Source: Polytrichum commune
Lineage: Eukaryota; Streptophyta; Polytrichopsida; Polytrichales; Polytrichaceae
Assembly: GCA_950295325.1 (NCBI GenBank)
Contig: OX485804.1
Coordinates: forward strand, 4,218,001-4,282,000
DNA: 64,000 nucleotides
Direction of reading: 5' to 3'
Shown here: positions 4,223 through 52,359 of the stretch, piece after piece
Numbering within the stretch: position 1 is the stretch's first letter
Layout of the letters: every line of letters begins with the position of its first letter
Made by a program: the position numbers and the translations under genes
Notes under the pieces: generated by a model
Told to the model about the DNA's origin: nothing
Seen by the model: only the letters and a program-made list of their open reading frames with translations
Database searches by the model: none

Positions 4223-4405
4223 TCACGAGTCGACCAGCGACGCACCCCTCCTCCATTTTGAGCCACCACCATCACCTAATGAAACATTTCGCTGGCGCCT
4301 CCATTTGGAGCCACCACCATCACCCAATGTCCTCCTTCGCACTACTTCCGACCTCTCACCAGGTGGATTCCACCTGGAGACGCCACCATCACCTGCGGCA
4401 CCCAT
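4223..4405 (-). CDS. GDGG-SKW repeat microprotein, layout A (60 aa)
   Basis: A 60-residue hydrophilic protein of unknown function. It starts MGAAGDGGVSRWNPPG and has three motif units: residues 5-15 (Trp12), 28-37 (GDGGGSKWRR, Trp35) and 44-53 (GDGGGSKWRR, Trp51). The linkers are basic (VVRRRTL, QRNVSL). There is no signal peptide, transmembrane segment or cysteine. The ATG is chosen because other copies begin with the same M-[GA]-A-[AT]-GDGG string. A TATA-like box lies about 470 bp upstream at 4874-4881, and two TGACG cores lie upstream of it. Closest relatives here are the copies at 19952-20137 (open) and 15898-16046 (frameshifted). Reality as a coding gene is inferred from conservation among copies. 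No known family is recognised. Confidence 0.62.
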   Translation of the reverse strand: MGAAGDGGVSRWNPPGERSEVVRRRTLGDGGGSKWRRQRNVSLGDGGGSKWRRGASLVDS

Positions 4406-4873
4406 GGCGATCGAAGACTCTGGCTAAACAACCTCCGAGACTAGAACTAACTCAACTCTCAATCGCACTTCAGGTCACCTTCCAATGCCAACCCAACGAT
4501 CCACCAGACTCCGCTAATAATTCGAGTAAGTCTGTATCTAGCTCTTAAACCTCAACTCAATGAAGCTGAGTCCGAATAACAGCTCCTCTCCAGGCCGTGA
4601 ATGAAACCGTGATGTGAAAGTGCAGCTGAGAAAACTTCTGAACACTTATGAAGACTTATGAAGAATTTGTGTTGTGTGCAGCTGAGAAGATTGATGAAAA
4701 ACAACTCATGTGCTGTGGAGTCTGCAGCTGATGATGTGGTGCTAACCTAACCTCGATTTGAACCCCGAAAGTTTATCGTGTGCAGAATTGCAGTGAGAGA
4801 TGGGGAGTGTATTCGATGGTGAGTGGAAGATTCAAATGTGTGTTTGTGGTGCTGAATGAGAGGCGTCGTGAAG

Positions 4874-4881
4874 CTTATATC
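4874..4881 (-). promoter_or_regulatory. TATA-like box for the gene at 4223-4405
   Basis: Reads GATATAAG on the minus strand. Farther upstream on that strand are GTTGACGAG and CCGTGACGCTG, which contain TGACG cores (bZIP/TGA-type). The distance to the ATG, about 470 bp, implies a long leader or a leader intron. Confidence 0.35.
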
Positions 4882-5518
4882 CGACGAGGAGATGATGAAG
4901 TGGATCTAGTTCTCGTCAACTGCTTGTGACCGACAGTCGGGACAGCGTCACGGTCCCGACTCCCCAACACGGTCGTCGCTGGGTCGTCGTAACCGCGTCA
5001 GCAGGAATTTTTGTCCCTGCGACTGATCTTACTAGGCTCCACGCTACAGGAGACTCCACCCATTTCCTAATTCAGGGGGTTTCCTTTCTCTTTTCCTTTT
5101 TGAGGGAGGGCCGGCCAACGAATGACTTTCTTTAGATTACATCCATCCGTCCCTCATTCATTTTATGAGTGAGATTTTCTGGCCGGGTCTAGTGAGCGTG
5201 TGTCGGCCAGCATTTGAAAGGTAGTAAGTTACGTAGTGGGTTGACATAACATACTTTAGCGGTGCGCATTTGTTCATGTGGGCCTTACCAATATAATCAT
5301 GGGATATCCCAATCTATTGCAAGGAGATTCATTTAAGTCTTAATCTGCACAAGATTAGGGTTTCCTAGGGTTATATTTGCAAGGTTCACATGAACACTCT
5401 CAAATTGCTCAATAATGTTATGGATCTATGTACTACCAAGGGTGAGATTCCATGTGAATAAAGACAAACTTGTCCAAATGTAGAGGGAATTTGGTGGGGT
5501 AGAGTTTGTATGCGCCAA
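4882..5518. other. Intergenic promoter region
   Basis: Upstream flank of the gene at 4223-4405. An inverted pair around GACAGTCGGGACAG / GTCCCGAC occurs at about 4932-4962. No gene is supported. Confidence 0.35.
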
Positions 5519-5763
5519 CTATACTAAATATGATGTTTAGTGTCATCAATTCTAACAATCTTGCTCAATACTAATTGTAAACCACCGTATAGTGTCACCA
5601 ACACTAAACTTCAACTCACCATTATTTGTCATTCCTTGGAGATTGTTTGGGGATAATAGATCTACAGTGATGCATGACAATATTTCATCACAAGTTGCTG
5701 ACAAGAGAAGGTGGGGTTTTGGCCAATGGGTGAACTCATCCATCATCCATGACAATATTTGTA
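5519..5763 (-). repeat. MITE family F, partial inverted copy
   Basis: Matches in reverse the element at 42781-43166. The shared blocks include the ACTAAATATGATGTTTAGTGTCA end, TTGCTCAATACTAATTGTAAAC and CATCCATGACAATATTTG. The far end is lost or diverged. The frames here are repeat-derived and not genes. Confidence 0.6.
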
Positions 5764-6559
5764 AACTTATATATGTATACTTAATACGTAATGCTACACA
5801 GTGACATAATATAGTATGTATGCTCCAATTGGAATAGTGCGTATAATGAATGAAGTAATTCTAGGCCTAGGATCACTTTTACCAGTTTTAGCTATAAATA
5901 TCCACTTGAAGTAGTTTTAAATGTTGAATGCATGATTCAAAGGTTGATGAAAACCAAAGAATTTGTACTATTATAAAATATGTGTTAAAGGTTTGATTTG
6001 ATATTGGCATGCAAATTTAAGGTTTAAAACCAATGAGTTTTCAAGGTTACATCCATACGTTGGAATCAAAAGTACAATAAAATTTTGGTAAGTAAAATTT
6101 TGAAGCATTTATTTTTTGAAATTTCTAAAAAAAATTAATTAAAAACAATCCACTTAAATTTTTTTAGGATTGGATGGAAGTATAAGGTCTACTTGAACAA
6201 TGCCAAAAAATTCAAGTGGAATGTCATTGAATCATTTAAAACCTTAAAAACGTCCATATATAAGAAATTCTCCAATAAAGATTTTTTTTTGACATAAACC
6301 ACTTTCATCTTTTTCCTGAAAAATATGCATACCTATATGCCACTTGATCATGAGAAATATACTATTTGAGAGGAATTTTTCTTGTGAATCCAACAAAGTA
6401 TGGAGTGACCTTCCATCATGAAGCTTCCTTCTAACAGAGAAGTGTGTCCAAAATCATCCATCGGGAAAGAAAGACACTGGATTCTTCTGGGCTTTGCATC
6501 TGAAGGCCCAATTCATGCTGAATTAATCTGGTCTCAAGGTTTGAAAGAAGGGGAAAAAT
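5764..6559. other. AT-rich intergenic DNA
   Basis: No gene, RNA or repeat partner seen. Confidence 0.4.
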
Positions 6560-6690
6560 CAATGAACGGGGAGTGCTGGCAGTTAGTTACAAGCTAGCCA
6601 GTTGATTTTGAGAATTTCCGAATGAAATAGAAATGTTTAGGAAGGGGTTCCAGAAGAAAAATCAAGGTTTTCGGAAATGGGCCAATTAGA
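6560..6690 (+). repeat. MITE family B fragment with an empty insertion site
   Basis: Begins AATGAACGGGGAGTGCTGGC and continues AGTTAGTTACAAGC, so the internal GTTA site that is occupied in three other copies is uninterrupted here. The remainder is diverged. Confidence 0.45.
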
Positions 6691-8314
6691 AGGAAAAAAA
6701 TGCTGGCATTTAGGCAAGCTGCCCTGGGAGTATCCACTGCAAATTACCAATTAAAAGGCATTTTTCATGGCGGGCAGCCAACTAGACATGTACTTCTTAG
6801 GATTTTTTTTTAATATTATGCATAGTTGGAGTTATTGTTGCCTTGCTGGCTTGAGGGTTTAGGGTCTAGGGTTGTTTGAGTGCTGAAGTTTAATCGGTTG
6901 AGTGATTGAGTGAGTCTGTAACTATGTGAGTGTTGAGGTAAGAATCTCGGGGCAATGCTGCGAATTGCCTTGGAAGCGCCAGATGAGGGGATAGATGACA
7001 TTATGTGTGATGATGTCCCACTTTGGAAGAATGACAGTAAGTATTGTTTTTTGTATGCTAATCCCTCTTCTTATTTGAATTTTCCTAATACACAGAGTGT
7101 GAGTGATGTGTCTTGTTTGTTTGGGGCAGTTCATACTAACAACAGTGGTACGCAATTTTTTTGACTTTCAATACTAACCAACCTCCAGAAAATACTTGGA
7201 CCCTTTGTGGATCTTGTATTTTCTGAAGGCTACATCCTTGCTCCTAAGATGGTAGGGACTTTGCCAATTTCAACTCATGCTAAGGATACTATTTAGACGA
7301 CAAAATAGTCTTGATGTATTTTGGTGGTGTAAATTGGCTCATTTTAGTTGATAAGGCCATTGAATGCCAACATTCTCTAACCCTGAATACTTGAAAAAAG
7401 AAAGAAGGAATGAATGACAATGAAACTTAAAGGAAAAAAATGGGGAGAGAATAAACATCCACCACCAAAATACAAAACCGACCCCAAAATACAAAACTTG
7501 AACATTGACTCTGAAGCGACAGTTGGTTTTATTGGTAACCATAGACAACCATCTAGTTGAAGGAAAGACGACCTTGAGAACACAATGTAACTTGATTGAA
7601 AAAGAATTCCATATTGAATTGTGATGAATTTCATGGTGTACAATATATCTTCATCAATCGGTCTCCCTGGTACCAGGATTCTAGGACTTTGTTTCTTGTT
7701 GGCAAAGTTGCATCCGCAAAAAATATTCTTAAATTGAAGACAACTAATGCATGTGAGATCTGAGAATCTACATGCAAATCCAAGGGGAACGATCTTCTGT
7801 ACCCATGAATTTGTCATTAAATTCTGGAGGTATCTTGAAATTCTCTGAATAAAAAGGATTCGATTGACGCACACATCATCACTAGTACGTTCTTGGGATA
7901 TGGCATTAAATTATGGAGATCTTGATCTTGTGACTCAAATGGTGATCCACTAGCTGCTATGGATTTTCTCAGCTCCACGTGTCAACCCTTCGATCCTCTC
8001 CTTGTGCAAGGTGAGTCCTGTGCTTCAAATTGCATTTTTGAAATTTTGACGAGCTGGAGGCTTTGAATTTCCCCCCATCTTTTGTCTTTGCTCCTCCTCC
8101 AGGTCCATCGTCTTCCTGCCGCCGCCATGGCGTCATGGATCATCAACAAACCAATACCGGAATGTGAATGAGATGATCTCCTGTGTATGTTGAAGAGAGC
8201 CCTGAAATGATCTCTACTTGATCAATAAATTCCTGCAGTGTAATGATCACTACAAATTTACTGTAAGAAGAATTTGACAGAATTTTGTACTGCCAGCTTG
8301 TTGTGAGCCTGCTC
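6691..8314. other. Intergenic; unrecognised frames only
   Basis: Open frames occur at 6955-7164 (+, 69 aa) and 7377-7874 (-, 165 aa, the second-longest in the window). Neither shows recognisable domains, a conserved partner or clear gene context. The 6955-7164 frame has a GTAAG-like donor at about 7036-7040 and might be an exon remnant. I see no sufficient reason to call either a gene. Confidence 0.35.
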
Positions 8315-8452
8315 TCACGATGGCCTGCGTGGCCTCCATTTGGAATTACCACCGTCACTTTCTAAGTCGTGCTGTTGCTGTGGAGCCCGACCTCTTGTGC
8401 CTCGAGGGGGGTTCCACTTCGACTGACCACCATCACCCCTCACATGAGCCAT
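8315..8452 (-). CDS. GDGG-SKW repeat microprotein, layout B (45 aa)
   Basis: A 45-residue protein beginning MAHVRGDGGQSKWNPPRG. Unit 1 spans residues 6-16 (Trp13) and unit 2 spans residues 32-42 (SDGGNSKWRPR, Trp39). The linker TRGRAPQQQHDLE is the same length and style as in the gene at 44020-44157 (SRGRGPARQDKEF), which identifies them as orthologous-type duplicates despite many DNA differences. The start is the ATG in a CCATGG context and the stop is TGA. A good TATA box at 8829-8835 lies about 380 bp upstream, with GACGTCA immediately before it. No signal peptide, cysteine or membrane segment. Function unknown. An antisense-strand frame offset from this one (8143-8358) is a shadow. Confidence 0.65.
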   Translation of the reverse strand: MAHVRGDGGQSKWNPPRGTRGRAPQQQHDLESDGGNSKWRPRRPS

Positions 8453-8828
8453 GGAGTGGATTCAAGTAATTGGTGACAAGAAATTGTCAATCTCAAAGAG
8501 GAGCTGGATCAACTTAGTCCCGCAGGCAGCAGAACCCTAAAGTTCACACTGTCTTTCTAATGCTGCCAGATGAAGTTATGAGGTTTGAGGAAGAATAAAG
8601 TATGAAGGATGCTGAAAACCCCTGAGGTTTGAAAGTTTCTCTAAAGTCAAGTTCTTTCTTTCTATTGCTGCCAGATGAGACTATGAGGTTTGAATGTACT
8701 GAGGAGGATACCTTAAAAGGCCGACGACATCTGAGTCCAGAAGATAATATAGAAGAATGCTCAAAACCCTGAGCAATTGAATCATTCGGAACTCTGCTTG
8801 ATTTGGAATGTTTAGAATTCTGTTGTGC

Positions 8829-8843
8829 ATATATAGTGACGTC
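8829..8843 (-). promoter_or_regulatory. GACGTCA plus TATATAT promoter block
   Basis: On the minus strand GGACGTCACTATATATGC places a TGACGTC-type bZIP site directly upstream of a TATA box, about 380 bp before the ATG at 8452. The gene at 52237 has TGACGTCA about 30 bp before its TATA box. Confidence 0.45.
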
Positions 8844-10315
8844 CATGGCTCCCAATTGGCGTGATCGACAAGCTCCAGCAGTTTGCCGACACACACGGAA
8901 TTGCAAATGAACCCAAGCCGATGCAGATGATGTGGAGCCTTCGACGCGGCCAAGTTTACCTACCAGCTTCCTTGTGACGGAACACAGCACTGGGAGCTTC
9001 TTGGTGGCGCCACAAGCACCCATGTCAAAGCGGAGGATTCTTGATTAGGATATTCCCTGGAACTTGATCAAAATTCTCCGTCGCAGACTGCTCTTCGCGA
9101 GTCATTTCTCGCCGTCTGTATCGACCATCGATCTCTAGAGCCTGCACGCGCTTACCAACTTACCTGCGTAACTTAATCTGCCACTGTGTGAATTAGTCAG
9201 TTGTCTTTTAATTTGGCAGCGGCGGAATGGGGTGCGCAACCCGGGGACTGGCACTGTCCGCGGCAAAAGAAACACAAGAGTAGTATCCCTCCCTCCTTCC
9301 TTCCTTCCTTCCTTCCTTCCTTGGCGGGTTCGCCGATTCACCGAAATTCAATGGTTTTTTGAAGATGTGGGAATATCCGGAATAGGTAGATCCTTGAAAC
9401 TGAGGGATACTCTGAATGGCCTCATTACAAAGTGCTTTGCACCGTACACGTCAAAGTGAGAGATGTGATCGCGCTATCATCATAGTTCATTTTAAGAGCC
9501 CAGTGGGAGCCCCAGTGCATTGGTTTCTAGCCCACGTTGAATCTCTGATGTAAAATTAGTGTGGGTCAAAAAAGATTTTTTTTTCTAGGAAATCGATGTG
9601 GGTGAGTAGTTATTCTATACTACTTTTGATGTAAGGTGAGTTTAATGAATTCACTACTAACAATGAGTAAATTTATTCAATTTAGTGTATTTGAGAATCA
9701 AAGTATGTACCTAGTATGAGTTCTTCCTCAGAGCGTCCCCACCAGACCGGGCATGGGGCATGCAACGTAAAAAATGGGGCATCCCGGGTTCTTGGGTGGC
9801 GGTACCGGCATAAATTGAGCCCCACCAATGTTTGGTCCCCCATAATTTAGAACAGAACTCTTCCGGCCCGCCAAGAGGTTACTTTAATATCAGATACTCT
9901 GATATCCTACTTTATCCCATGTCAGATTATAGGTGTCGTTGTCTTATTGATTGCTTCCTAATTATACCGGGGGTATGCCTAGGCTTTGACGGGCTTCGAC
10001 TCAAGATGAGCTGCCCCGCCCAAGATGGAGGGCTCCCCAAAGGTATAAAATATTATATACTCTATTTGGCGTGTACCCGATCTGGTGGGGATGCTCTCAG
10101 TAGTATGCAGAGGTTCTGCTCATGAGTTGTGCTAAGTCATGGATTCCTTGTTCCATCTACTGGAAACACATTCAATTGAAGTAACTTCTAATATGCTCTA
10201 TAATTATTTTCTACTGTAATTTTGGCCCAATGCTAGGCCAACATCGCAGTCATGAATATAATGGTACAAAGGATATTTCTGAAATGTGGGAAAATTCGTG
10301 TTTAGTCACACTAAT
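8844..10315. other. Intergenic; contains a (TTCC)n microsatellite
   Basis: A (TTCC)n run occupies roughly 9287-9322. The overlapping short frames here are derived from it or are random. Nothing else is recognised. Confidence 0.4.
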
Positions 10316-10559
10316 CACTATATTCGTTAATTAGAGACTTTGGAAAGTCTCAAAATAAATGCAAATGTTTGAATATCTAGTTCAATTTCTTATTGTGATG
10401 ACATGTATTTGTGCCAAATTGGTTAGTGCCGCCCATGCAAATCACTTTATTAAGTCACACTGAATATATTTTTTGTGTTTTTCTTGTTCTATATTTGAAA
10501 AACTATGTTCTTAAATAGTCTCAAAATCATGAAAAAGTCTCCGATTACCGAATATAGTG
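10316..10559 (+). mobile_element. MITE family C, copy 1 (244 bp)
   Basis: Terminal inverted repeats are CACTATATTCG at the start and CGAATATAGTG at the end, extending imperfectly inward. A second copy of the same length lies in inverse orientation at 25388-25631. Non-coding. The target duplication is ambiguous. Confidence 0.75.
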
Positions 10560-15897: not shown

Positions 15898-16046
15898 ATT
15901 TGGAGCTACCGCCATCGCCCAATGTATTATTTCGTTGGCGCCTCCACTTGGAGCCACCGCCGTCACCCAATGTAGCAATTCGCACTCCGGACCTCCCCCT
16001 CTCGCGGATTCCACCTCGAGACGCCCTTATCACCTGCGGCACTCAT
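15898..16046 (-). pseudogene. Frameshifted GDGG-SKW copy, layout A
   Basis: Begins MSAAGDKGVSRWNP, the layout-A start, but the DNA between units 1 and 2 is 2 bp shorter than in the gene at 4223-4405. The first frame therefore ends at a TGA after 27 residues. In another frame the two downstream units (TLGDGGGSKWRRQR and TLGDGGSSK) are intact up to a TGA that replaces the third Trp codon. Unit 1 also has GDKG instead of GDGG. It was clearly once the same gene and is now broken, unless the short 27-residue product is used. Confidence 0.7.
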
Positions 16047-17614
16047 GATTCAAACAAAACAAATCTGAGTCGTCAGCCTGCCTCCCGGTCAGCTTTATGT
16101 CTCCTCGATCGGCCTGTCTCCCACGCATGCAGGCCAGGGCGTGAGCTGAGGAGTCTGAGCCACCAGTGGTAATCCTGAGAAGAGTCTGTGAGTGTGATGA
16201 GCAATTATTCACTGGCCAGTAGCTTGTGTTGTGTGTTGGGGTTGAGATTTGGCTGTGGTGTGTCTCTACGGAGAATGACAGGATGAATTAATACCTAGCT
16301 AGGTATGTGGAGATCAGGCTGCATATACTTACACAAGTCCCACTCATGCTGAGGTATGTGGGTGTTGTTTGGTTCCTTTTCCATGTTCTCCAACTCCTAC
16401 TGATTAGATTTACACAACAAAATTCGTGTTGCATTAGCAAGTCTATGATGAAACACCTGCAAAAACCGGATTGAAAATTGGATGTCCCCCCTTTTAGTTA
16501 TTGTTGTTGATAGTGCATGCTTATTGATTTCTCAATTGGATACATACAGTAGGTCCTCTCAATTGCATTCACTATAATTGAGTGTAGTATAGTTATTAAT
16601 ATTTGAAAATGTTCTAGCCCAATCTCTTTTAAACATGTGTCTTTATGGTGTTTTCTCTTTGATCCTCACTGGACCACATATCGATTAAAAAACGTTATTG
16701 CATAACACCCGCATACCTTAGCAAATCCCAACTTTTGAGCCTCATTAAGACATCATTAAAATATAGTTATTTATCATCAAAGTCGGAACTTGATTATTTT
16801 ATGTAAAAATATTTGCAGGACTTAGTGTCTTGAGACTTGGGATGCGGGGCTCGGTATGAAGTGGTAAGTCTCAACTTCCATCCTGTCATCCTCCGACATT
16901 GAATGAATTGACCTCAAGTGACTTGGGACTTAGGACCTGGGACCCATGTGAAGCGGCCCTTACTCAATGTATTCCTAATCAAATATGTGGAATATGATAG
17001 AGTACTTCACAGTTTTATCAGCTCAAAAAGAGCCTAATTAAAGAAAAATCTGAAGACATGTCTGCAAGATGAAAGTCTTGGTTTTCCAACTAAAAATCAT
17101 TTCTTTGCAGCTTTTGCTCCAGTTTTCCCGTTTTTGGAGTTAAGAACTCAGAAGGAAATTAAATTCCTGTCTCTGAATTCATAAGAGATGATTTTCATAC
17201 GAGTTTTTTCAAAACATTTATGGGTGAGGGAAAAGAATCAAGGCCAAAATGCATAACTCGATTTTTTCAAATAATTCCATACATTGGTGAAAGAATAGCT
17301 ATTCATGGAAAGATTTACGAACTAACTTTTTGGTGATATCTAGGTACTGAGTTTAATGGATTGTTTTCGGACTTTATAGCCAGTTTTGTGAAGTGCATGT
17401 TTACAAGTGTGGTGATGATTGGGAGGGTCAGTCTTGGATGAATACATCTATTTGTTTTCTGTTACCATATCATATTTTGATTCCCACTGCCATTGTTTGA
17501 ATTCCGAAGGTGGCCCACCACCTAGACCCACATCTTGGCTTCTGCAGGATAGGTGGAACCCTTATTAAGCTTAAGGTACACAAAGTTCCTTATTTCGTTA
17601 CTTTTCTTATGAGG
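16047..17614. other. Intergenic
   Basis: Includes the upstream flank of the pseudogene, with a weak GTATATGC TATA-like site at about 16322 on the minus strand. No other gene seen. Confidence 0.35.
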
Positions 17615-18812: not shown

Positions 18813-18994
18813 ATGGGTGCCGCAGGTGATGGTGGGCGCTCAAGGTGGAAACCGGCGCTTGTAAGGGGAAGTCATCAAGAGTACGAGGAAAGTCGTTAGG
18901 TGATGGCGGTGGCTCGAAATGGAGAAATCAATTAGATACGTTAGGTGATGGTGGAGGCTCCATCAAATGGATTCGGTGGAGTAAGCTCTTGTAA
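18813..18994 (+). pseudogene. Frameshifted GDGG-SKW copy, layout A
   Basis: Begins MGAAGDGGRSRWKP like the other layout-A genes, but a frame change in the first linker makes the initial frame stop at 18897-18899 after 28 residues. In another frame the two downstream units follow (SLGDGGGSKWRNQL, then TLGDGGGSIKWIRW with one inserted residue before Lys-Trp), ending at TAA 18992-18994. A weak ACATAAAAGG lies about 250 bp upstream. This is the only layout-A copy on the plus strand. It is probably decaying, and the first 28 residues could still be expressed. Confidence 0.68.
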
Positions 18995-19951: not shown

Positions 19952-20137
19952 TCAAGCGAGCCGGCTGCGTTCTGAGTGTTCAGTTCCCCGTCTCCACTTC
20001 GACCCACCACCATCACCCCATGATGCACTCCTTCGTTGCCGCCGCCATTTGGAGCCACCACCATCGCCTAGTGTTGCCCTTGGCACTCCCGACCTCTCCC
20101 CAGGCTGGTTCGCCTTCGAGACGCCACCACCACCCAT
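19952..20137 (-). CDS. GDGG-SKW repeat microprotein, layout A (61 aa)
   Basis: A 61-residue protein with MGGGGVSKANQPGERS at the start. Compared with 4223-4405, three codons of the first unit are missing and the Trp-Asn-Pro core is replaced by Ala-Asn-Gln. Units 2 and 3 are intact (residues 24-33 GDGGGSKWRR, Trp31; residues 41-50 GDGGGSKWRR, Trp48). An extra Trp sits at residue 40, and a charged tail ends ERSRLA. The leader just before the ATG (GTTGTTTAGC...CCAGA) matches the gene at 4223-4405, so the start is well supported. No clear TATA box found. It is open and so possibly functional with two working units. Confidence 0.58.
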   Translation of the reverse strand: MGGGGVSKANQPGERSGVPRATLGDGGGSKWRRQRRSASWGDGGGSKWRRGTEHSERSRLA

Positions 20138-23480: not shown

Positions 23481-23488
23481 CAAGGAGG

Positions 23489-24581
23489 CAGTGCTCAAAA
23501 TTGAAGTCTTCAGTGCCCTTCAAATGGGTTTCGGGACTTCACAAAATACCTCAAGGAAAACAACCCTTCAAAACATAATCCTCATGTCTAAGTGCTCCCG
23601 TCACTTGAAGTGCTGGATAAATAGTACCCTTCAAGTACTGTTCATCATCTCAAGTAGTTGTTTAACTCCAGCTGTCTAACTTTGGGCTCCAGATCTCAGA
23701 TCCAGATGGGAATTGTATGTTGATAGGTTTGGTTGTGAGAAAGTGCATACTTTGCACTATGACTCTATGCCCGGGTGTGATGTAGGGGGCTCGTTGGAGG
23801 ATTGCATCACCCTTGGTAGACTATACGTCCAAAAGGTTATTGACTCACTAAATGATCGCTTCCCCGACTTTCCCATTTTTAATGCGGCCATGTTTTTCAG
23901 CCCAAAACACTATCCCATGGATGCATTGGATCGAGGCACTTTAACTGAGCAATGGTTGAACCGGTTGGTGACACATTTCAAGTGGAGCTCTGTTCTTGTT
24001 GATCAAGCCAATGCGGAGTTGCTCGAATTTGTGGAGATGTTATCTTCAGCTTGTCAACACCAAAGTATGCATGAAGATTAGGTTTTTTGTGGCCGTGACC
24101 GAGAGTTTAAGATCAATTGGCCAACCCTAATGTCGCTATGGCAAGCCATACTTGTGATCCCTACCAACACTATTGTTTGTGAGCGTGGTTTTTCAAAGCA
24201 AAATTAAGTTAAGAGCGAAAGGAGAACATGCCTAAACCTTGACACACTTGATGCATTGATGAGGGTTAGCCTAAACAGTTTGGGAGTTGAATTCATGGAT
24301 TGGAATGGCATTTTTGACACTTGGAAAACCGCTACAGTAACCAACAAGCGTAGGGCATTGTCACTTCAAGAGGTGGAGTTAGATGGTTGATTCTTCATTA
24401 TTTCATTGTACTAGAAGCATGTAACATGCAAATCATGCATAATTTTAATATTATAAGTTTTATATTTCTTTGAAAATTTTCCATTGACGTCCTAGATTTA
24501 GATATGCCCTTCAATTGCAATGCTGAAATTTCAGAGCCCTTCAAAATGAAATTCATATGAGGGCTTCAATTTTGAGCACTG
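23489..24581 (+). mobile_element. hAT element, internally deleted (1,093 bp)
   Basis: Perfect terminal inverted repeats CAGTGCTCAAAATTGAAG / CTTCAATTTTGAGCACTG, with subterminal AGTGCCCTTCAAATG-like blocks. It is flanked by an exact 8-bp duplication CAAGGAGG at 23481-23488 and 24582-24589. Inside is the C-terminal part of a hAT transposase. The exact termini and target duplication suggest a fairly recent insertion. Confidence 0.9.
23713..24390 (+). pseudogene. hAT transposase C-terminal fragment
   Basis: One frame runs through the fragment with two in-frame stops, TAG at 24079-24081 and a TAA at about 24207. The part before the first stop (MYVDRFGCEKVHTLHYD...) has the acidic/aromatic pattern of hAT middle regions. 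After it, WPTLMSLWQA, PTNTIVCERGFSKQN and LDTLDALMRVSLN match the hAT dimerisation domain pattern (ERgFS, then a Leu-rich stretch). The N-terminal zinc finger and most of the catalytic domain are missing. It cannot encode an active transposase. Confidence 0.75.
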
Positions 24582-28365: not shown

Positions 28366-28570
28366 CACTGTAGTTACAGGTGAACTGGTTGAGTTTGAGA
28401 ATTAACCGGAGGAGTTCAAGACTTGAGGAAAATTACCATCATTGTAGAGGAATCGATGAAATCTACCTCAAATGAATAAAGAAAAATCGAGAGGTCACAA
28501 CATGTAACCGTTTGGACTTGAATACACTAGGATTTTGACCGATTATTCTAAAACCCTCCCCGGACACTGC
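28366..28570 (+). repeat. MITE family B, right-hand part
   Basis: From GTTACAGGTGAACTGGTTGAG to CCCTCCCCGGACACTG, including CAACATGTAACCG[TG]TTGGACTTG. The left tip is not adjacent. The minisatellite array ends in front of it, so the array may lie inside another insertion at the same internal site. Confidence 0.55.
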
Positions 28571-29406: not shown

Positions 29407-29589
29407 CTATCTGCCTCCTGATCCAGGCGGCTTCCACTTGGAGGCTCCACCATCCCCTTCTGATCTGCTCTTACTTCCACCGGGAGGTTTCCACTTGGAG
29501 GCTCCACCATCACCTTCTTGATCTACTTCTCTCCTCTTACCTCCAGGCGGTTTCCACTTGGAAGCTCCGCCATCACCTTTTACAGCCAT
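29407..29589 (-). CDS. GDGG-SKW repeat microprotein, layout C (60 aa)
   Basis: A 60-residue protein with three nearly perfect units GDGGASKWKPPGG at residues 5-17, 26-38 and 45-57 (Trp12, 33, 52; the last unit ends PPGSGG). The linkers are KRREVDQE and SKSRSE, with dibasic or Arg-rich sites. The frame is open for 57 further codons upstream, but the ATG at 29589 is preferred. It gives the MAVKGDGG start seen throughout the family, and the upstream codons show no conserved features. Units differ by synonymous changes (Gly, Ala, Pro codons). A TATA box (TATAAATA) lies at 30011-30018 and the shared motif GGTCAAGGCACGCA at 30094-30107, both on the same strand. No signal peptide, cysteine or membrane segment. 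Function unknown. Confidence 0.7.
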   Translation of the reverse strand: MAVKGDGGASKWKPPGGKRREVDQEGDGGASKWKPPGGSKSRSEGDGGASKWKPPGSGGR

Positions 29590-30010: not shown

Positions 30011-30018
30011 TATTTATA
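30011..30018 (-). promoter_or_regulatory. TATA box for the gene at 29407-29589
   Basis: TATAAATA on the minus strand within CCCGTATAAATACAG, about 420 bp before the ATG. Confidence 0.5.
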
Positions 30019-32064: not shown

Positions 32065-32071
32065 TATATAA
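32065..32071 (+). promoter_or_regulatory. TATA box for the gene at 32424-32603
   Basis: TATATAA in TGCATATATAATGCG, about 355 bp before the ATG. Confidence 0.5.
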
Positions 32072-32423
32072 TGCGAACAGAATCCTCACCATGCCAAATT
32101 ACATCCCACACAGCGTCAAACATAGCAAACACAAGAGGCACACAGCAATATCGGAGAATAATTCACTCTTCAGACTTACGCAGACGGTATCCTTAGCTTC
32201 AGAGGATCAGCTCCTGTGAATTCACCTTGTCTAAAAGAGTTGGACTTACGGAGCAGTGCATTTCATCATCATCGCTCCACAGTAGTCATCCGGCAGATTA
32301 TTCTCAAATTGGTAAATCAGATACGACTAATAAGTGTATTAATCCGAGTAAGTCTCGGGTAGCTTGATCCAGAGATTCATCGAAGTCGTTGGAGAAAAAT
32401 TGATTCCGTAAACTACATAATAT

Positions 32424-32603
32424 ATGGCTACTGTGAGAAGTGATGGTGGTTCTTCCAAGTGGAATCCACCTGGAGGAAGCAAGTCAAGGAGAGAAGGTGA
32501 TGGTGGTGGCTCAAAGTGGAATCCACCTGGAGGAGGTAAGTCGAGGAGAGAAGGTGATGGTGGAGGCTCCAAGTGGAATCCTCCTGGTGGAGGAAGCAAG
32601 TGA
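32424..32603 (+). CDS. GDGG-SKW repeat microprotein, layout C (59 aa)
   Basis: The cleanest member: a 59-residue protein MATVR followed by three units, SDGGSSKWNPPGG (6-18), GDGGGSKWNPPGG (25-37) and GDGGGSKWNPPGG (44-56), ending GSK. The linkers SKSRRE and GKSRRE are nearly identical, so the protein is a regular array with a 19-residue period. Units 2 and 3 differ at four codons, all synonymous (Gly GGT/GGA, Ser TCA/TCC, Pro CCA/CCT, Gly GGA/GGT). This indicates selection on the peptide rather than recent DNA duplication. The conserved SRRE before each unit could be a processing site, which is an inference. The antisense frame at 32339-32599 is a shadow. No signal peptide or cysteine. Confidence 0.72.
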   Translation: MATVRSDGGSSKWNPPGGSKSRREGDGGGSKWNPPGGGKSRREGDGGGSKWNPPGGGSK

Positions 32604-40914: not shown

Positions 40915-41031
40915 CTAGCTTCCCATGTCAAGTTGGCACCTTGGTCGTTGAAAGCCAAAATCATCGTATCGAGTATCAGGTGGACTGCTGATTGGCGAGT
41001 TGGTTCGGCCCCCATCACCTTCTGCAGCCAT
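40915..41031 (-). CDS. Divergent relative of the GDGG-SKW family (38 aa)
   Basis: A 38-codon frame starting MAAEGDGG, the family start (compare MAPEGDGG at 52237 and MAAAGDGG at 44020), and then diverging to RTNSPISSPPDTRYDDFGFQ without the Ser-Lys-Trp core. A Pro-Pro pair is kept 10 residues after GDGG and an Arg-Pro-Arg occurs at residues 29-31, about where the second unit of layout B has its Arg-Pro-Arg. A TATA-like AATATAAA at 41271-41277 on the same strand lies about 240 bp upstream. It may be a decaying copy or a gene that has changed role. The antisense frames at 40830-41073 are shadows. Confidence 0.4.
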   Translation of the reverse strand: MAAEGDGGRTNSPISSPPDTRYDDFGFQRPRCQLDMGS

Positions 41032-43750: not shown

Positions 43751-44019
43751 AGGGAATTTCAGAACATTCTCCACACATCCTCACTTGCTCATTCTCTGTC
43801 AGATAGTAGCGCAGGAATAAATTCAGCAACAGATCAATTCAGAACTTCATCTGTCATTACAAGCTAACGAAACTCAAATTCTTCTGGCTTGTCACATTCC
43901 TCTCTCTTTCTCTATCTCCCTTTACCTCTCTCCAGCACTCATCAAATCTCACATCACAAATCACTCATTTACCAAGGTGTAAGTTTTAAGGGTAACTCTC
44001 GTAAATTCGATCCGACGAC

Positions 44020-44157
44020 ATGGCAGCCGCAGGTGATGGAGGTGCCTCAAAATGGAATCCGCCTGGGGGATCACGAGGTCGGGGTCCGGCTAGGCAAGAC
44101 AAGGAGTTCGGCGACGGAGGTGCTTCCAAGTGGAAGCCAAGAACGAGTCTCCAATGA
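44020..44157 (+). CDS. GDGG-SKW repeat microprotein, layout B (45 aa)
   Basis: A 45-residue protein MAAA followed by GDGGASKWNPPGG (5-17, Trp12), the linker SRGRGPARQDKEF (18-30) and the second unit GDGGASKWKPR (31-41, Trp38), with tail TSLQ. The two units differ at five synonymous codons (Gly, Asp, Ala, Ser, Lys), while the peptide GDGGASKW is identical. It is closest in layout to 8315-8452. The longer frame at 43889-44176 is out of phase and ignores this start. No signal peptide, cysteine or membrane segment. TCTCGATCGG occurs about 25 bp after the stop, as after two other members. Confidence 0.7.
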   Translation: MAAAGDGGASKWNPPGGSRGRGPARQDKEFGDGGASKWKPRTSLQ

Positions 44158-45706: not shown

Positions 45707-45856
45707 TCACACCCTGATCGTCATGATGCAAAGCCCCATCGACCTCTTACTCCCTCTAGGAGGATTCCATTTCGAAGAACCACCGTCTCCTTCGCTTCTC
45801 TTATTCCCTCCGGGTGGATTCCATTTGGAAGAACCACCATCGCCTGTGGCACCCAT
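45707..45856 (-). CDS. GDGG-SKW repeat microprotein, layout C (49 aa)
   Basis: A 49-residue protein MGAT, unit 1 GDGGSSKWNPPGG (5-17, Trp12), linker NKRSE, unit 2 GDGGSSKWNPPRG (23-35, Trp30), then SKRS and a hydrophobic tail MGLCIMTIRV. Layout-C genes at 29407 and 32424 have a third unit where this tail begins, so the tail probably results from loss of unit 3. Between units there are five synonymous changes and one replacement (Gly to Arg). This is one of only two members with a cysteine (residue 40 here; residue 31 in the gene at 52237). TATA-like ATATATATAT at 46186-46195 and GGTCAAGCCACGT at 46233-46245 lie upstream on the same strand. Antisense frames at 45696-45893 are shadows. Confidence 0.66.
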   Translation of the reverse strand: MGATGDGGSSKWNPPGGNKRSEGDGGSSKWNPPRGSKRSMGLCIMTIRV

Positions 45857-46185
45857 GGAGATAATCAGTTACCTCTACCCTGAATTTCTATAGCCTACGC
45901 GCCTAGCTCAAACTCCCTTCAGAAGCTATAACAGTACTAATTGTCGATCGGACTTGTATCTGGTTCAACCAAGCTGAAATACTGCAGTCGCCCGGTGGCT
46001 TCACAGAGAAACTGTAGATTAATGACGAGGCACAACTGTAAACATACAGAAGAGGAAGCACCAATTCTCAACTGCTGATAATCTCCTGGCGCACTAAGCT
46101 ATCATGTACAACAGAAGTTAGAACGAAGAGTAATTCATTTGCATCTGTCTTATGTCGCTGTGTAGAATGGATGGAAATCCTTTCC

Positions 46186-46195
46186 ATATATATAT
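46186..46195 (-). promoter_or_regulatory. TATA box for the gene at 45707-45856
   Basis: CATATATATATGG, about 330 bp before the ATG. Confidence 0.45.
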
Positions 46196-46232
46196 GCTGG
46201 CCCTGTATACTTGGGACTCACTGTGTCTAATT

Positions 46233-46245
46233 ACGTGGCTTGACC
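46233..46245 (-). promoter_or_regulatory. Shared promoter motif, variant GGTCAAGCCACGT
   Basis: Differs at two positions from GGTCAAGGCACGC at 30094 and 32035. Lies about 38 bp upstream of the TATA box. Confidence 0.4.
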
Positions 46246-49200
46246 ATCGACAACATGCCACGCGGACAAAAAACACAAACATTAATTTGAAGTAATTCTA
46301 TCATGTGGAGGGGGCAGAAACGCGTCCATGGTTTGCTTGAAATCTGGACTTGGATCTCCTGCCCAACTCCTGGTGGCACTAGCTAGCAATCAAAAAATCG
46401 GTCGGAAATTCTGAAATTAATTTGACAATTTTTAAGTTTCCAAGTCATTTGGTTGAAAGTTCTTACAGGACCTTCATTGAGGTTGCTTGAACTGCTTATA
46501 CCAGTCAGCGTCGGTTATAAAATACCTTCCTTTTGATGTTTCCTCAGATGTCTCACACCATGTAGTTTCGGAGATGATAGCCTGGAAAATATAAAGCTAC
46601 TTCTTTCCATGACATACAGCCTGGAATATTTAATGGAATTACTTGTTAATTATCTCGTAATTTCAAGTGTCAAACCCTAATGACAAGATCAATTGGTGCA
46701 CACAAAATCAAAGGTCAGTGTTCATATCAGGGATCAGTTTCCGATCACAAGTGATTAATTCGTCTCCAAAGCGTCATGAAAGTTATTAATGACGGCAGCA
46801 GGTCACTACAGAATGACTTCAAAGATGTTGTAAACTGGGCCTACCGTAACAGATCATCATGATTCTTGCATCAATACATTTCCCCTCGAACTCGGCAATA
46901 TTCTTCCCACCTAGTCGGCGGGCCGACACTGTTTGCCGCATACATACGGCTTGTTTGAATATCAATCAAGCATGGCACCAAATACTCAAAGTCTTGTGGT
47001 AAGATTTCTCAAACTTGGGGCCAGGGGGAGGGCAAAAGGGAGGGGCAAATATAAGCAACCAGAAGCAGCAGTACAGCACTTATTCGATCCACTCATGAAA
47101 AAATAGTTTGTAGTTAGTCCATTTGACAAATCGGATTACTGAAAAAATTTGGGGGCTGGGTCAGGGCTGGCTAGCTAGCTAGCTCGGAGGAAGCTGCAGT
47201 AACTGATACTATGAGCTCATCACGGGTCTGTTGAATTACCAAGAAAATTAAAAAGTCCACTACATGACTTTTTGTCGTCAACTTATCATCACGTTGACGG
47301 TACAATTTAGAAACATTACTCTGTACATGCACCCACCTACCTACCAACCAGCATGAGAGAATTACACATGAAATTCGTCGCTTTTCGCTCAGATTGTACT
47401 GAGACCACCCAATTGTCAGTTATTCAGTTGAAGGCGAGACATGTCGTCCTATAACTGCAGGCAGCCTCTTTTGAGTTACTAATAAAAAGGACCGTACTTG
47501 CAGGGGTTCTCATTTGTGATTCCTCGTCTCCCAAAGTAAGACTACTTACTAGGACATACAATTTCTTGCCAGGCAATTGTAAACAGCCATCGCTTGAAGT
47601 CACATTCAAGGCTGGAAAATCATGGGTAAAATTATCCGAGGTACGTCTATGAACTGACCTTTGTAGTCTGCTTTCAAAAGGTCCGATTAATTTCTAACTT
47701 CTTGGATACAGGCTATATGTGCTTGTGACTTGACCATTACATTGTAATTGCATATGTCAACTGTAGTAATCATCTCTTGATGCATTGAGAGGCAAAATCT
47801 AGACATGATTTCTTCAACGTGGGACCCACTTCTCCTAATTCATCACGTGGGGCCCCAAAACTCCATTGAGTGCGGAGCGTTTGCCTTCGATGTGTTGGGT
47901 TCATGAGATCAAAGGTAAGAATTTGGTCCAGGGACTCAAGTAGTTACTCTTTTCCAGGTGGCAAGAAAGGCTAGATGAAGAGTCAAAGTTTTGAAAAACT
48001 GCTCATCGACGAACAAGCCTGGCATGCCAGCTGGCCCCTTGACACTTGTCTTATGCATATATTTCAAGCTTTGTGATAAGTCGTAGGGGGGGGGGGGGGG
48101 GGCAAATATGTTGAAGACTAAAAGTATGTATGTGAGACTCAATTCGCTTGAGTAAGACGTAAGCACTGGAACAATCAATGTTTGACCAAACCAAAACCCA
48201 ATAAATCATGCTCACAGGAAACATCACTGGATGAAATGGGTTCATAATATTTCTGAGTTTGGTGAATTGTTTCAGGATGACTTGAAAGCTGCTCTTAATC
48301 AATCGGTATGAAAAACAAACTTACTTCATTGGGCAGCTTGTGTTCGCAAGTAAGAAAATTTTGAGGAATCCTTTTGGGCCATGAATGAAGTTCTTGTCAA
48401 CCTCCTGGTGGCTTTATGTACCTTTTCTGGGATGTTGCGTCAATTTATTGTCTTGTATTCTTGCATCTTAAGACACTGCCGCAGCAGTTGCTAATACCAA
48501 GCCCGGGGCGGCAACTCAAACAAATAATCCATCCATATTATCTTTGTACATTCATACCAAAGAATTAATTTACAGAACTTAGAATGGAGTGATGTAGTGC
48601 ACACTGAGATCGTCCATAATACGTAATAATTTTTTGATTTGAACATGTCTATGTATTATAATACATGAATCATTTGAAAATGATTTGGACTTTCTCTTGA
48701 ACAAGGGGACTAGTCCATAATTTGGTCTCCATCATACCTAATTATAATTTATATACTCTACAAAAATTTGAAGATAATTAGATTATTTGAGCTTGTAAAT
48801 CCTAACCCTAACTCTCGTCCCAACTTCTGTCCGTGGCTCCTCTCCCGTTTCTCTTTTGAAACTCTTCAACCTCTCTTCAATAGTTAAAAGTTGTAGATTA
48901 TTTGAAACATAATCTAGATTATATGAACGATTACGTGTACATAATCTATGCCTTTGTGAAATTTTTGGACAAGCCTCCTATAATTATTTGTTTGAGTTGC
49001 TGCCCCTAGATACCAAGAAAAGTATCGCAATATCAATCTGCAAAATTTACCACTTTTCATGCAAAGTTCGACTGGAATTAGGACAAGGAACAAAAATCCT
49101 ATTAAAACCCAATCAACTACAGGTTAAGTTGTTGCTGTACTTCGGTTCACCTTTCTGCTCTGTATGTGATACAATATAGCTTGATAAATTAGACTTAGTG

Positions 49201-50145
49201 TAAATTAGAAAAGAGATGATTTCAGTCAACTTCGCAAATCAGTATGGTTATGGGCGCAGAGCAAACCTAGGGCAAATCAATTGATCTTAACGACATAGAC
49301 ATGTTAACCTTACCAACAGACACAAAAGCCCACCACAGGAATATCACGTAAATTGAAAATTGAGGCTAATGGTGAAAAGATCCAGGTTTAGGGTCCAACA
49401 TTGAAAATGGTTATAAGATTACCCTTAAGACCATTTCGATTAATAGGCTTTGTCGCCGGAATCTGATTAAAAAATTGTCACATTGGCATTCAAGGAAGAT
49501 TGCTAACCTACACAATAAATTATTACAAAGGTCCCTTGATGTCACAAACACTTCACAAATCATGTGCTATGATATACAAACACACTTTGATCAAAGTTGT
49601 GAAACAACTATCAAGCATAAATTTGTCGAGGAGAAGTCAAGTTTGAAGCATTATAAGTGTAAAGAACATGACATTTTAGCTCAAGTCTACTCTCAGGCTT
49701 TTAAATGAAACTCTTGACCTATAACACTGGATATTATTACCAATTGCTTCCTCCTTGTGCAATATTCAAGCTCCCTTACATACATCATCGAAGTTTGCAA
49801 AATCTTAGTTAACTCATGTTTGTGATCACATTCACATTGAAACTCAACTCAAACTCCAAAAAAATTGGGTTTAGTTAGGGGTCACTTGCAAGTGCAAAAG
49901 TTGACTCATATCTCCTAAGTCATTATAAAAATGATGCATGGCCTATATATTACAAGATGAAAAATTGCTTTCCCATAGTTATGGGATATGGTTGATGGGT
50001 ATCCTTGAGAGGACCTTTTCATTTGATGGGCTAATTTTTTTTCTTCCTCTTCCATGTAACAGACTTTTCATCATTTTCGTTTTCCTTTCACCGGGCAAGA
50101 TTAATTTCAGACTTTATATGCCTTTCCTTTTGCTTGTGATGGGCA
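46246..50145. other. Long intergenic stretch
   Basis: No gene recognised in 3.9 kb. A 17-G run lies at 48086-48102. GCTAGCTAGCTAGCT occurs near 47170. Short frames (47424-47609, 47936-48302, 48988-49179, 49475-49708) have no recognisable features. Confidence 0.4.
48086..48102 (+). repeat. G17 homopolymer
   Basis: Seventeen consecutive G. Similar in length to the terminal runs of the MITE at 35816-36163, but without a matching inverted end nearby. Confidence 0.8.
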
Positions 50146-50705
50146 ATGAACGGGAAGAACCGACTGCTAATACCCCAGCCACACCGGGGATGTAGCCGCC
50201 CCCCATCCAACCCAACCAGTGCGGGGCCCCATACACCCTAGATGGCCAGCCCCAACTGCAAGGGGCCCCGCACCGGCCGGGCCGGCTGGGGGGCAGTTGG
50301 ACCCCCCGGTGTGCCCATGGTATAAGTTACAGTTGAACCGGTTGATGTTCAAAGCTTCAAGAGAATTACCGATCGTTTTAGAGGAGGTTATAGAACATAC
50401 CTCAAATCAATGAATACAGACCGAAAGATGTCAACATGTAACCGGCTGGACTTGGAAACACTCGGATCTTGACCAGTGATCGGGGAGATTTCTGAGCATA
50501 ATCGGTTGAGATCCTAGTGTTTGCAAGTCCAACCAGTTACATGTTGACATCCTCCGGTTTTCCTTTATTGAATTGGAATATATTCGTCTATAAATTCCTC
50601 CAAAATGATCATCAGTAATTTTCCTGCAGTCTTGAACTTCAACCGGTTGGTTATTTCTCAAACTCAACCGGTTCATCTGTAACTAACTGCCAGTTCTCCC
50701 CGATC
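50146..50705. repeat. MITE family B, inverted pair with GC-rich insertion
   Basis: The left half (plus, from AACGGGAAGAACCGACTGCTA) contains the insertion 50173-50320 and then TTACAGTTGAACCGGTTGATG to about 50470. From about 50480 to 50705 a second copy runs in reverse and ends AACTGCCAGTTCTCCCCGATC. The two halves are complementary over roughly 150-200 bp. Confidence 0.65.
50173..50320. mobile_element. GC-rich 148-bp MITE
   Basis: The ends CCCCAGCCACACCGGGG and CCCCGGTGTGCCCATGG are near-complementary and flanked by TA. It is strikingly GC-rich against the AT-rich surroundings and sits at the same internal site of family B that is occupied in two other copies. Confidence 0.6.
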
Positions 50706-51020
50706 ATTGATCTTGACTGATTATATCAAAGAAATTCCCCAGACACTGGTGACAGGTCCAAAAAGGAGCTTCGGTCCCACCCAATCCCATGTTCTTGGAA
50801 TATAAAAGCGCATGGCTTGGAGTGCAAATTAAAAGAGGTAGCAAATGATGAGAATGTCGGAACCAATATTTAGTGTTCTTTAGGACAGACAAAGAAAGAA
50901 TGTCCCCGAGTGGCCGACACAAATCGAGTCGGACATCACACACATCTGACTCTGATGAGTCGTTGCTCACGTCATATTATGCACTTTTTACTTATTACCT
51001 ATACAAATCCAACCCAAGCA
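50706..51020. other. Spacer
   Basis: No feature recognised. Confidence 0.35.
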
Positions 51021-51243
51021 GTGCCCGGGAAGTTTTTGGGCATAGTCGGTCAAGGTCATAGTGATTCTAAATCCAGCCGGTTACATGATGACATCTTCCG
51101 GGTTTGCCTTATTCATCTGACGTATATTCTATAGATTCCTCTATACTGATCGGTAATCCTCCTGAAGTCTGGAACTTCAACCGGTTATTTCTCACATTCA
51201 ACCGGTTCATCTGTAACTAACCGCCGGTTCTCCCCGGACATAG
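51021..51243 (-). mobile_element. MITE family B, near-complete copy (about 223 bp)
   Basis: Starts TGCCCGGGAAGTTTTTGGG and ends AACCGCCGGTTCTCCCCGGACA, with the ACCGGTT-rich body in reverse orientation. Its internal CTGTAACTAACCGCC site is uninterrupted. It lies about 0.7 kb upstream of the TATA box of the gene at 52237. Confidence 0.65.
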
Positions 51244-51565
51244 TGACTATTTTCTGGAAACCAATTTCTGACTGACTTTGTTGAGAAAGTCCCCGGCAAG
51301 GGTCCGCCTTCGGAGCTGCTTCCGGATTGCAGGTTCCGAAGCCGCACTTCACTTACCTAACCAATTTCTTGACACTCAAGCCGACTCATTTCCACCATCA
51401 AACCCCAAGTAAGTTCCTTTGAGTCATGTCCCTGGAGTCTAACCAATATTCAACGTCAGGTTAGTTGTTACTGGCAGCAGAAATCTCATGCGGTTTTGAC
51501 TCTACAGCGTTAATGTCAACTCCCAAAGGTAAACTCATGCTGGTGGGTCCGGACGGGTGGGTTGA

Positions 51566-51604
51566 GGGGGGGGGAAGGGGGGGGAAGGGGGGGGAAGGGG
51601 GGGG
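51566..51604 (+). repeat. (GGGGGGGGAA)n tract, strong G-quadruplex candidate
   Basis: Four runs of 8-9 G separated by AA, about 350 bp upstream of the TATA box of the gene at 52237. The frames on both strands across it are low-complexity shadows. Confidence 0.8.
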
Positions 51605-51916
51605 CAAATCTACAATACTTTTCTTCTTGTGGCGGCCGGCTAGAGTAGATAGTCGATCGCGGTGTTGCCGACTTTCAACTCTCAAGATGAGGGCCGTTAT
51701 CGATCGTGAGATGGAAATTAGGACCCTGTTGCCCCTCTCCTCTGACAATTTGAAACGCACTTTGAATTAGATTAAACGCGTTGCGTTGTTGGGACGTAGA
51801 GAGTCAAACTTCGTACATCCTCACACCAAGCCTGGTTGATCGATGACCTGCAACTCTAACCTGAAAAATGATGAATCTCATGTCCAAACGCACGATCCAG
51901 AGGTCCATCAAAGTTT

Positions 51917-51924
51917 TGACGTCA
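51917..51924 (+). promoter_or_regulatory. TGACGTCA bZIP-type site
   Basis: A palindromic TGACGTCA, overlapping TTGAC, 31 bp upstream of the TATA box. This is the classic binding core of TGA/CRE-type plant bZIP factors. Actual use is inferred. Confidence 0.5.
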
Positions 51925-51954
51925 GGTACCGCGTTCAACCGAGGATCCGGATGC

Positions 51955-51960
51955 TATAAA
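51955..51960 (+). promoter_or_regulatory. TATA box for the gene at 52237-52359
   Basis: GCTATAAAGGG. Predicted transcription start about 51985-51990, giving a leader of about 250 nt that contains a (CTT)n run at 52009-52029. Confidence 0.6.
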
Positions 51961-52236
51961 GGGAGCTCCTCCACTTCTGGTAATTCACAGCATCGCAAAC
52001 ACAAGATTCTTCTTCTTCTTCTTCTTCTGCTAGCTAAGAAGTTAACCTCGGAGTTGTGAGCTTGACTAGCTTATACTTGTTATCTTATCCACCTTCTGCA
52101 CACAGATTGAAATTTCTGATCAAGGTTGCCCTAGAAGGTCGACTTTCATCATTTATCTCACGGTCGACTAACATCTGCTGCCCGCGGCCGAAGATCCAAC
52201 TCGAAAGAAAGAAAGAAAACTACTTCACTTGCAGCT

Positions 52237-52359
52237 ATGGCTCCAGAAGGAGATGGAGGTGCCTCAAAATGGAACCCTCCTCGACGCGTTCATAATGAAG
52301 TGCAACAACAGATACAATTCGGTACCTGCAACAACTTCGAATGGCACCAAGAAAGTTGA
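52237..52359 (+). CDS. GDGG-SKW repeat microprotein, layout B variant (40 aa)
   Basis: A 40-residue protein MAPE, unit 1 GDGGASKWNPPRR (5-17, Trp12), linker VHNEVQQQIQF, then GTCNNFEWHQES (29-40). The last block aligns with the second unit of layout B: the position-matched Trp (36) is kept, but Asp-Gly-Gly and Ser-Lys are lost. The ATG is preceded by TTCACTTGCAGCT, which looks like a splice acceptor, so a leader intron is possible. Its promoter is the best in the window (TGACGTCA, TATAAA, CT-rich leader). The in-frame overlap of the upstream frame 52056-52295 is in a different phase. Function unknown. Confidence 0.62.
   Translation: MAPEGDGGASKWNPPRRVHNEVQQQIQFGTCNNFEWHQES

Follow-up and report, generated by a model that had tools for sequence, protein, structure and literature searches.

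Leaderless peptide signals such as systemin, Pep, ZIP1 and GRI have been described in flowering plants, with multicopy precursor genes in the case of Pep. PMC11756074 counts systemins, PEPs, ZIP1 and GRI among the peptides that lack an N-terminal signal peptide. Here, we describe a family of very small genes in the moss Polytrichum commune, the products of which carry the motif GDGG-x-S-[KR]-W and might belong to this leaderless kind. The genes lie in a stretch of 64,000 nucleotides (nt), the window, which is C2:4218001-4282000 (contig OX485804.1), and the genome searched comprises 408 Mb in 64 contigs. The original prediction, made from the sequence of the window, counted at least eight open and two broken copies on both strands, and our six-frame reading of the window from 4.2 to 52.4 kb gave eight and two, with open reading frames (ORFs) of 40-61 codons in the open copies. 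The cluster extends beyond the left edge of the window, where there are three more copies, a, b and c. The copies are as follows, with positions in the window unless C2 is given.

C2:4207590, forward strand: copy a, nearly identical to copy b and inverted relative to it
C2:4214032, reverse strand: copy b, 95% identical to copy a over 1.7 kb
C2:4216956, reverse strand: copy c, motif altered to GDSG and second half changed
4223-4405, reverse strand: copy d, intact ORF of 60 residues, motifs GDGGVSRW, GDGGGSKW and GDGGGSKW
8315-8452, reverse strand: copy e, intact ORF of 45 residues, motifs GDGGQSKWNPP and SDGGNSKW
about 15905-16047, reverse strand: copy f, broken; motif 1 altered, then a frame change, then GDGGGSKW and GDGGSSK followed by a stop
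about 18813-18960, forward strand: copy g, broken; open start of 28 residues, remaining motifs in a different frame
19952-20137, reverse strand: copy h, open ORF of 61 residues, motif 1 degenerate (GGGGVSKA), two good motifs
29407-29589, reverse strand: copy i, intact ORF of 60 residues, GDGGASKWKPP three times
32424-32603, forward strand: copy j, intact ORF of 59 residues, SDGGSSKWNPP, then GDGGGSKWNPP twice
40915-41031, reverse strand: q, an uncertain, possible remnant starting MAAEGDGG, remaining 30 residues unrelated
44020-44157, forward strand: copy k, intact ORF of 45 residues, motifs GDGGASKWNPP and GDGGASKWKP
45707-45856, reverse strand: copy l, intact ORF of 49 residues, GDGGSSKWNPP twice
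52237-52359, forward strand: copy m, intact ORF of 40 residues, a single good motif, GDGGASKWNPP

The first motif begins no later than residue 7 of the protein, successive motifs are separated by linkers of variable sequence, and in the nine proteins of the C2 cluster the stop codon lies 6-28 residues past the last motif. Among 21 motif units, position x is free and the other positions are almost fixed, with tryptophan retained in 20, a near-fixity that is partly circular because the units were chosen by means of a relaxed motif. The motif as first described needs small corrections: motif 1 of copy h is GGGGVSKA, SDGG opens motif 1 of copy j and motif 2 of copy e, and copy m has one good motif. 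The statement that the interval lacks ordinary genes was only lightly probed, by a Pfam scan of one ORF (23680-24078) from the 48-kb interval, which gave no match.

Similarity among the copies begins at the start codon. When the copies were compared by blastn together with 800 nt of upstream and 1200 nt of downstream sequence, the alignments ran from a few bases around the ATG to about the stop codon. The exceptions, in which the flanks are similar as well, are the a/b pair with a relative at C7:37.7 Mb and a pair of genes at C7:10.3 Mb; in addition, copies c and e have a common upstream piece of 91 nt, and copies g and h have a common piece of 101 nt. Over the 28 pairs of the eight ORFs, the first 45 nt of the frame are 74.1% identical, compared with 49.6% for the 45 nt before the ATG and 47.5% for random 45-mers. 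Because ORF lengths and motif numbers vary, whole ORFs have a low global identity of 56.6%; the values for 150-nt leaders, 3' pieces and random pieces are 52.3%, 52.4% and 51.0%, respectively. The calculated proportion of synonymous differences (pS) by the Nei-Gojobori method exceeds that of nonsynonymous differences (pN) in all 28 pairs (pooled pS 0.681, pN 0.293), and the ratio of nonsynonymous to synonymous substitution rates (dN/dS) is 0.06-0.37 in the 19 pairs with a finite dS, the dS of the other nine being saturated. Protein-guided alignments, which were used here, favour pS > pN, and the comparison was therefore repeated frame-blind. Differences by codon position were then 11.3, 14.0 and 41.3%, highest at the third position, and codons with a single difference were synonymous in 73% of cases (209 of 288) in the true frame, and in 13% and 11% in the other two frames. 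The copies are thus under purifying selection in one frame, as is expected for a protein-coding gene. Two of the frame-blind results count against coding: only 18 of 63 gaps have a length that is a multiple of three, which is no enrichment, and of the 2464 aligned sites, 294 are out of phase. We put both down to the unrelated linkers. A caveat on the selection test is that the wobble-matched antisense frame also gives 70% synonymous changes; this frame contains stops in four of the eight copies, whereas the sense frame contains none.

The DNA in front of the ORFs is poor in ATG. In positions -240 to -1 of 14 copies (a to m minus b, with the broken copies f and g and the altered copies c and h included, plus the two C7:10.3 genes; q, the C7:37.7 copy and a third cluster described below stand outside the count), we observed six ATG triplets, compared with a mean of 48.7 and a minimum of 26 in 2000 runs of a first-order Markov model. 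Other triplets are plentiful in the same positions (AGT 86, TAG 64, TGA 77, GAT 58, GTA 48), ATG averages 78 in random 240-nt pieces from the region, and positions -500 to -260 of the same 14 copies hold 65. In 11 of 12 cluster copies, at least 163 nt separate the start codon from the next ATG upstream, the exception being copy f with 82 nt; region-wide, a gap of at least 160 nt separates only 2.7% of 7218 neighbouring ATG pairs. For copy d the nearest upstream ATG is at -304, and for copy i it is at -445, beyond a TATA-like word. Such a word (TATAAA, ATAAATA or TATATA) is found at -430 to -270 of 10 of 16 starts (a, b, c, e, i, j, l, m, the doubtful q and C7b, with none in d, f, g, h, k and C7a), compared with 15.1% of random pieces and with none or one of the 16 starts in each of five other 160-nt slots. 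This control is not blind, since the slot was picked after the data had been inspected, and copies a and b are not independent. The start codon itself reads ATGG in all eight ORFs tested. The TATA-like words of five copies in the window are the following.

8828-8835, reverse strand: TATATATG at -383 of copy e
30011-30018, reverse strand: TATAAATA from -429 of copy i
32065-32072, forward strand: TATATAAT from -359 of copy j
46186-46194, reverse strand: TATATATAT from -338 of copy l
51955-51961, forward strand: TATAAAG from -282 of copy m

Read from the sequence, then, the transcription unit would usually present the ORF as its first AUG, behind an ATG-poor leader. The bias among codon positions, the excess of pS over pN, the similarity that sets in at the ATG and the ATG-poor leaders together argue for a family of small protein-coding genes, and the ORFs are almost certainly translated. 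The motif GDGG-x-S-[KR]-W, with the [NK]PP that may follow it, is under purifying selection, in contrast to the diverged linkers, leaders and 3' flanks. The tandemly and dispersedly amplified small-gene family under protein-level constraint that the original prediction proposed is therefore supported by the identity, pS/pN, codon-position and ATG tests. Of the conserved role that was proposed with it, the sequence constraint is confirmed and the role itself is not.

A DNA pattern for GDGGxS[KR]W has 45 matches in the genome (24 + 21), 19 of them in the window. By location, 23 lie at C2:4.207-4.270 Mb, nine at C7:10.298-10.302 Mb, one at C2:9.646 Mb and 12 elsewhere. Since the same pattern reversed gives only 13 matches genome-wide, the enrichment is far beyond chance. 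For G-x-S-[KR-like]-W-[NK]-P-P we observed 19 matches (15 in the C2 cluster, one at C7:37.737 Mb, three elsewhere; control 2), and for GDGGx[S/T-like]xW[NK] 32 matches (17 in the C2 cluster, six at C2:9.643-9.670 Mb, six at C7:10.30 Mb, three elsewhere; control 5). The isolated matches inspected were those at C7:28.07 Mb, where a stop directly follows the motif, and at C2:9.646 Mb, which led to the third cluster; no larger host protein with the motif was noticed among the matches inspected. The many dispersed copies expected of a transposable element or high-copy repeat were not found, the genome copies amounting, in counts that are lower bounds, to the clusters and one degenerate copy. This copy and an additional member of the third cluster are as follows.

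C7:37.737 Mb: degenerate dispersed copy with an in-frame TAG
C2:9673327: additional third-cluster copy that contains a stop

These data also bear on whether the copies are untranslated DNA repeats or transposon pieces with accidental frames, the outcome that the original prediction had named as fatal to it. The two broken copies in the window, the interrupted C7 copy, the repeat-rich region and the gap and phase figures given above would suit such repeats. However, the third-position excess, the predominance of synonymous single differences in the true frame, the onset of conservation at the ATG, the depletion of upstream ATG and the lack of a dispersed high-copy family do not. Repeats without codon structure were looked for in the codon tests and not found, and we reject this explanation, which we consider extremely improbable, on codon structure and on the ATG depletion of the leaders.

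The C7 matches represent two tandem genes of 139 and 105 codons at C7:10298495-10302384, which repeat GDGGGS[RK]W five and three times at a period of 17 residues and have a common middle of about 44 residues and a terminal GDGGPSKW, of which the second copy has an altered form. The pair is similar in its leaders and 3' flanks as well. The C-terminal half that they share was found in no other gene, the only trace being a weak, stop-containing match at C2:4237877-4238068. The third cluster, at C2:9643012-9673386, consists of repeated units in both orientations with seven ORFs and the motif form GDGG-x-T-x-WN. Six of these ORFs have 19-21 codons and are of the type MGQNNDGDGGKTTWNGGGGK; in the remaining one, a 17-nt insertion shifts the frame and yields 70 codons. 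Conserved ATAAATAG boxes, six for the seven ORFs, are located at -246 to -314, and one of them also lies at -466 of the second ORF in its unit. Downstream of the box, five of the seven leaders contain no ATG, that of U3 contains one, and that of the second ORF contains five. In five pairs from this cluster, identity is 75-95% in the ORF, 61-75% in the leader and 53-66% in the 3' part. The three clusters have the motif, its position beside the start codon and the layout of the gene in common, from which we infer shared descent; the ORFs of the third are too short to prove it. The three sub-families lie on two contigs and have products of about 20-139 residues, but each appears to combine a TATA-type promoter and an AUG-poor leader with an N-terminal motif. 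Quite possibly, they represent bryophyte peptide signals of a leaderless, multi-copy class, or multivalent microproteins built on the motif, and are of an age at which synonymous sites approach saturation between neighbours.

Short ORFs behind long leaders might instead be conserved-peptide upstream open reading frames (uORFs) or first exons, that is, the 5' parts of larger genes. GTAAG arises through G-K codons in some linkers (copies i and j), and the C7 pair and the third cluster have downstream DNA that is conserved between copies and leaves room for a further exon. In the C2:4.2-Mb cluster, however, a tblastn comparison of sense frames of at least 25 codons found no shared coding sequence in the 4 kb downstream of 13 copies: the 147 cross-copy hits, sorted by eye, are overlaps of the same DNA, the a/b duplication, repeat pieces or motif ORFs. 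The flanks there are unalignable, and the stops follow closely on the last motif. As a splice donor, GTAAG was rejected, as one of the seven third-cluster ORFs (U2b) ends in GGTAAGTGA and the others do not. Conserved-peptide uORFs resemble the present genes in being very short conserved ORFs that follow a leader and would lie close to the 5' end of the transcript; they differ in that the ORF here is multi-copy and repeat-bearing and, in the C2:4.2-Mb cluster, has no conserved main ORF downstream. We consider this explanation improbable.

The calculated isoelectric points are 10.0-11.8 for eight of the nine C2-cluster proteins, 5.4 for that of copy m and 5.0-5.1 for the C7 proteins. Cysteine is absent from seven of the nine, and all nine have two or three tryptophans. 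Over 11 proteins, glycine content is 10-31% and the grand average of hydropathy (GRAVY) is -0.41 to -1.86. Cationic, tryptophan-containing chains of this size might be small antimicrobial peptides, for which the high isoelectric points and the tryptophans would speak, but they are very hydrophilic and glycine-rich, and copy m and the C7 proteins are acidic; we give this explanation little credence. The glycine content and low GRAVY values would also suit hydrophilin-like stress protectants, small flexible hydrophilic proteins that accumulate on drying and protect in bulk, and many genome matches read as early-light-induced-protein (ELIP)-like are in keeping with a stress-tolerant plant. Late embryogenesis abundant (LEA) proteins are poor in tryptophan. 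Like LEA proteins and hydrophilins, the present proteins are glycine-rich and hydrophilic with repeated motifs, but theirs is a strict, tryptophan-containing motif of eight residues, and its position-wise constraint is unlike that of bulk protectants. No Pfam LEA match was found in the nine proteins. A protectant function is therefore unlikely, if less so than an antimicrobial one.

A hydrophobic start is absent from all 11 proteins, the top Kyte-Doolittle mean over 12 residues within the first 30 being at most -0.10 by simple hydropathy rather than a trained predictor. By this measure the proteins lack the N-terminal secretion signal of secreted hormones and, as expected for leaderless precursors, have no N-terminal signal peptide. 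An AlphaFold2 model of copy i, built from seven sequences, has a mean predicted local distance difference test (pLDDT) score of 58, a predicted template modelling (pTM) score of 0.14 and no secondary structure, a low confidence that is not proof of disorder.

Our tentative preference is that the GDGG-x-SKW proteins are leaderless peptide precursors that act in the manner of systemin and Pep. This preference is based on the coding evidence, the first-AUG layout, the three clusters of short ORFs, the lack of a confident fold or a hydrophobic start, the basic isoelectric points and the repeated motif with its variable linkers. The products would be leaderless and probably unstructured carriers of one to several short peptide motifs, joined by variable and often basic linkers. 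The precursor would be made in the cytosol, its linkers might be cut upon wounding or stress, and the released motif peptide might then be sensed, while the array would evolve through duplication, loss and changes in motif number. The target of selection would thus be the motif, either as a peptide or as an element for binding, with motif number adjustable and linkers serving as spacers or cleavage sites. Several observations weigh against such precursors. No common cleavage site is evident, as adjacent basic pairs number none in copy k and one each in e, m, a and the C7 proteins. The protein of copy m, with its one motif, has a net charge of -2, and those of C7 are acidic as well. The peptides of systemin and Pep precursors lie at the C terminus, in contrast to the first motif here. 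Finally, the third-cluster ORFs of 19-21 codons would leave little to process.

The last of these points would suit intracellular microproteins, in which the motif is a short linear binding motif; a flexible and mainly basic chain would present it in one to several copies and so titrate or bridge a single protein or RNA partner, with neither cleavage nor secretion. The lack of a signal-peptide-like start and of a confident fold, the members that carry one motif, the position of the motif next to the start codon and the retention of S-K-W beside a free x are all consistent with this. On the other hand, no larger protein with the motif was noticed among the matches inspected, and a widely varying motif number is needless for a one-to-one binder. 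We regard these microproteins as a doubtful but serious possibility, one that the data hardly separate from leaderless precursors.

Searches for relatives agree with the claim that the family is undescribed. Nothing exceeded the cut-off in Pfam for nine proteins (DUF7255, at E 0.0081 in one, is below it) or in NCBIfam for four; a PDB sequence search with copy i (E <= 10) and an Rfam search of the window at gathering scores gave no match; and 12 motif strings are absent from the PMC full text searched. The main text of a moss peptidome study (PMC4365561) has no word that starts with GDGG or SKW. IMG/VR, searched with A1, gave 24 pattern matches and no relative, and has little bearing on spread, as it is not a plant collection. 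The only match in GTDB, likewise not a plant collection, was a Dactylosporangium locus found with copy i, which was dropped because its frame has EGDGGAP without SKW.

In the surroundings, a dispersed repeat family with a core near TTGGACTTGGAAACACTA, part of it inverted, occupies 2070-2729, 28422-28561 and 50356-50495 of the window, and an AT-rich tandem array with a period near 13 nt lies at 57754-58075. The segment 58400-63300, with a MULE transposase piece at 60601-61110 (E 0.00055, under the cut-off) and flanking ORFs, is perhaps a decayed transposon. To the left of the C2 cluster (L009:7218-9293), a frame of 692 residues contains DUF7869 (E 2.4e-46), which we take to be a transposon-linked domain. 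Elsewhere, 14 clustered LHC genes on both strands at C5:1751760-1846160 have identical best PF00504 scores, which suggests recent duplication or gene conversion, and clusters of weak chlorophyll-binding-family matches at C2:29.39-30.91 Mb and C4:5.55-5.57 Mb were read as ELIP-like. When one light-harvesting protein of the genome was searched against PDB chains, its best matches to single domains were 8htu_U (461 bits, with 200 of 208 residues identical by our count) and 7xqp_a, both of the moss Physcomitrium patens; the first-ranked chain, 9vfj_2, owes its place to the sum of two repeats (284 and 234 bits), and seed-plant chains reach about 430 bits at most. Taken with the LHC and ELIP-like clusters, this makes a moss the likely source on sequence grounds.

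Annotation readily overlooks very small genes that encode neither a signal peptide nor a known domain, and this family is recognisable from DNA alone by its codon-position bias and AUG-poor leaders. It also provides a defined motif of 8-13 residues for synthesis and testing. If its members are leaderless precursors, it would add a moss peptide family to a field that includes systemin, Pep, ZIP1 and GRI (PMC11756074). The peptide families with which the original prediction had compared the motif are not the most apt comparison, as they are known mostly from seed plants. CLE, CEP, RGF, PSY, IDA and SCOOP are likewise encoded by small multicopy genes with a conserved short motif that may be repeated, but the present proteins have no hydrophobic N-terminal stretch and a different motif. 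To our knowledge, systemin and Pep share no motif with the GDGG-x-SKW proteins either. Compared with systemin and PROPEP, the motif here is repeated and N-terminal; what the three would have in common is a small leaderless precursor in which a short peptide is conserved and the remainder is variable.

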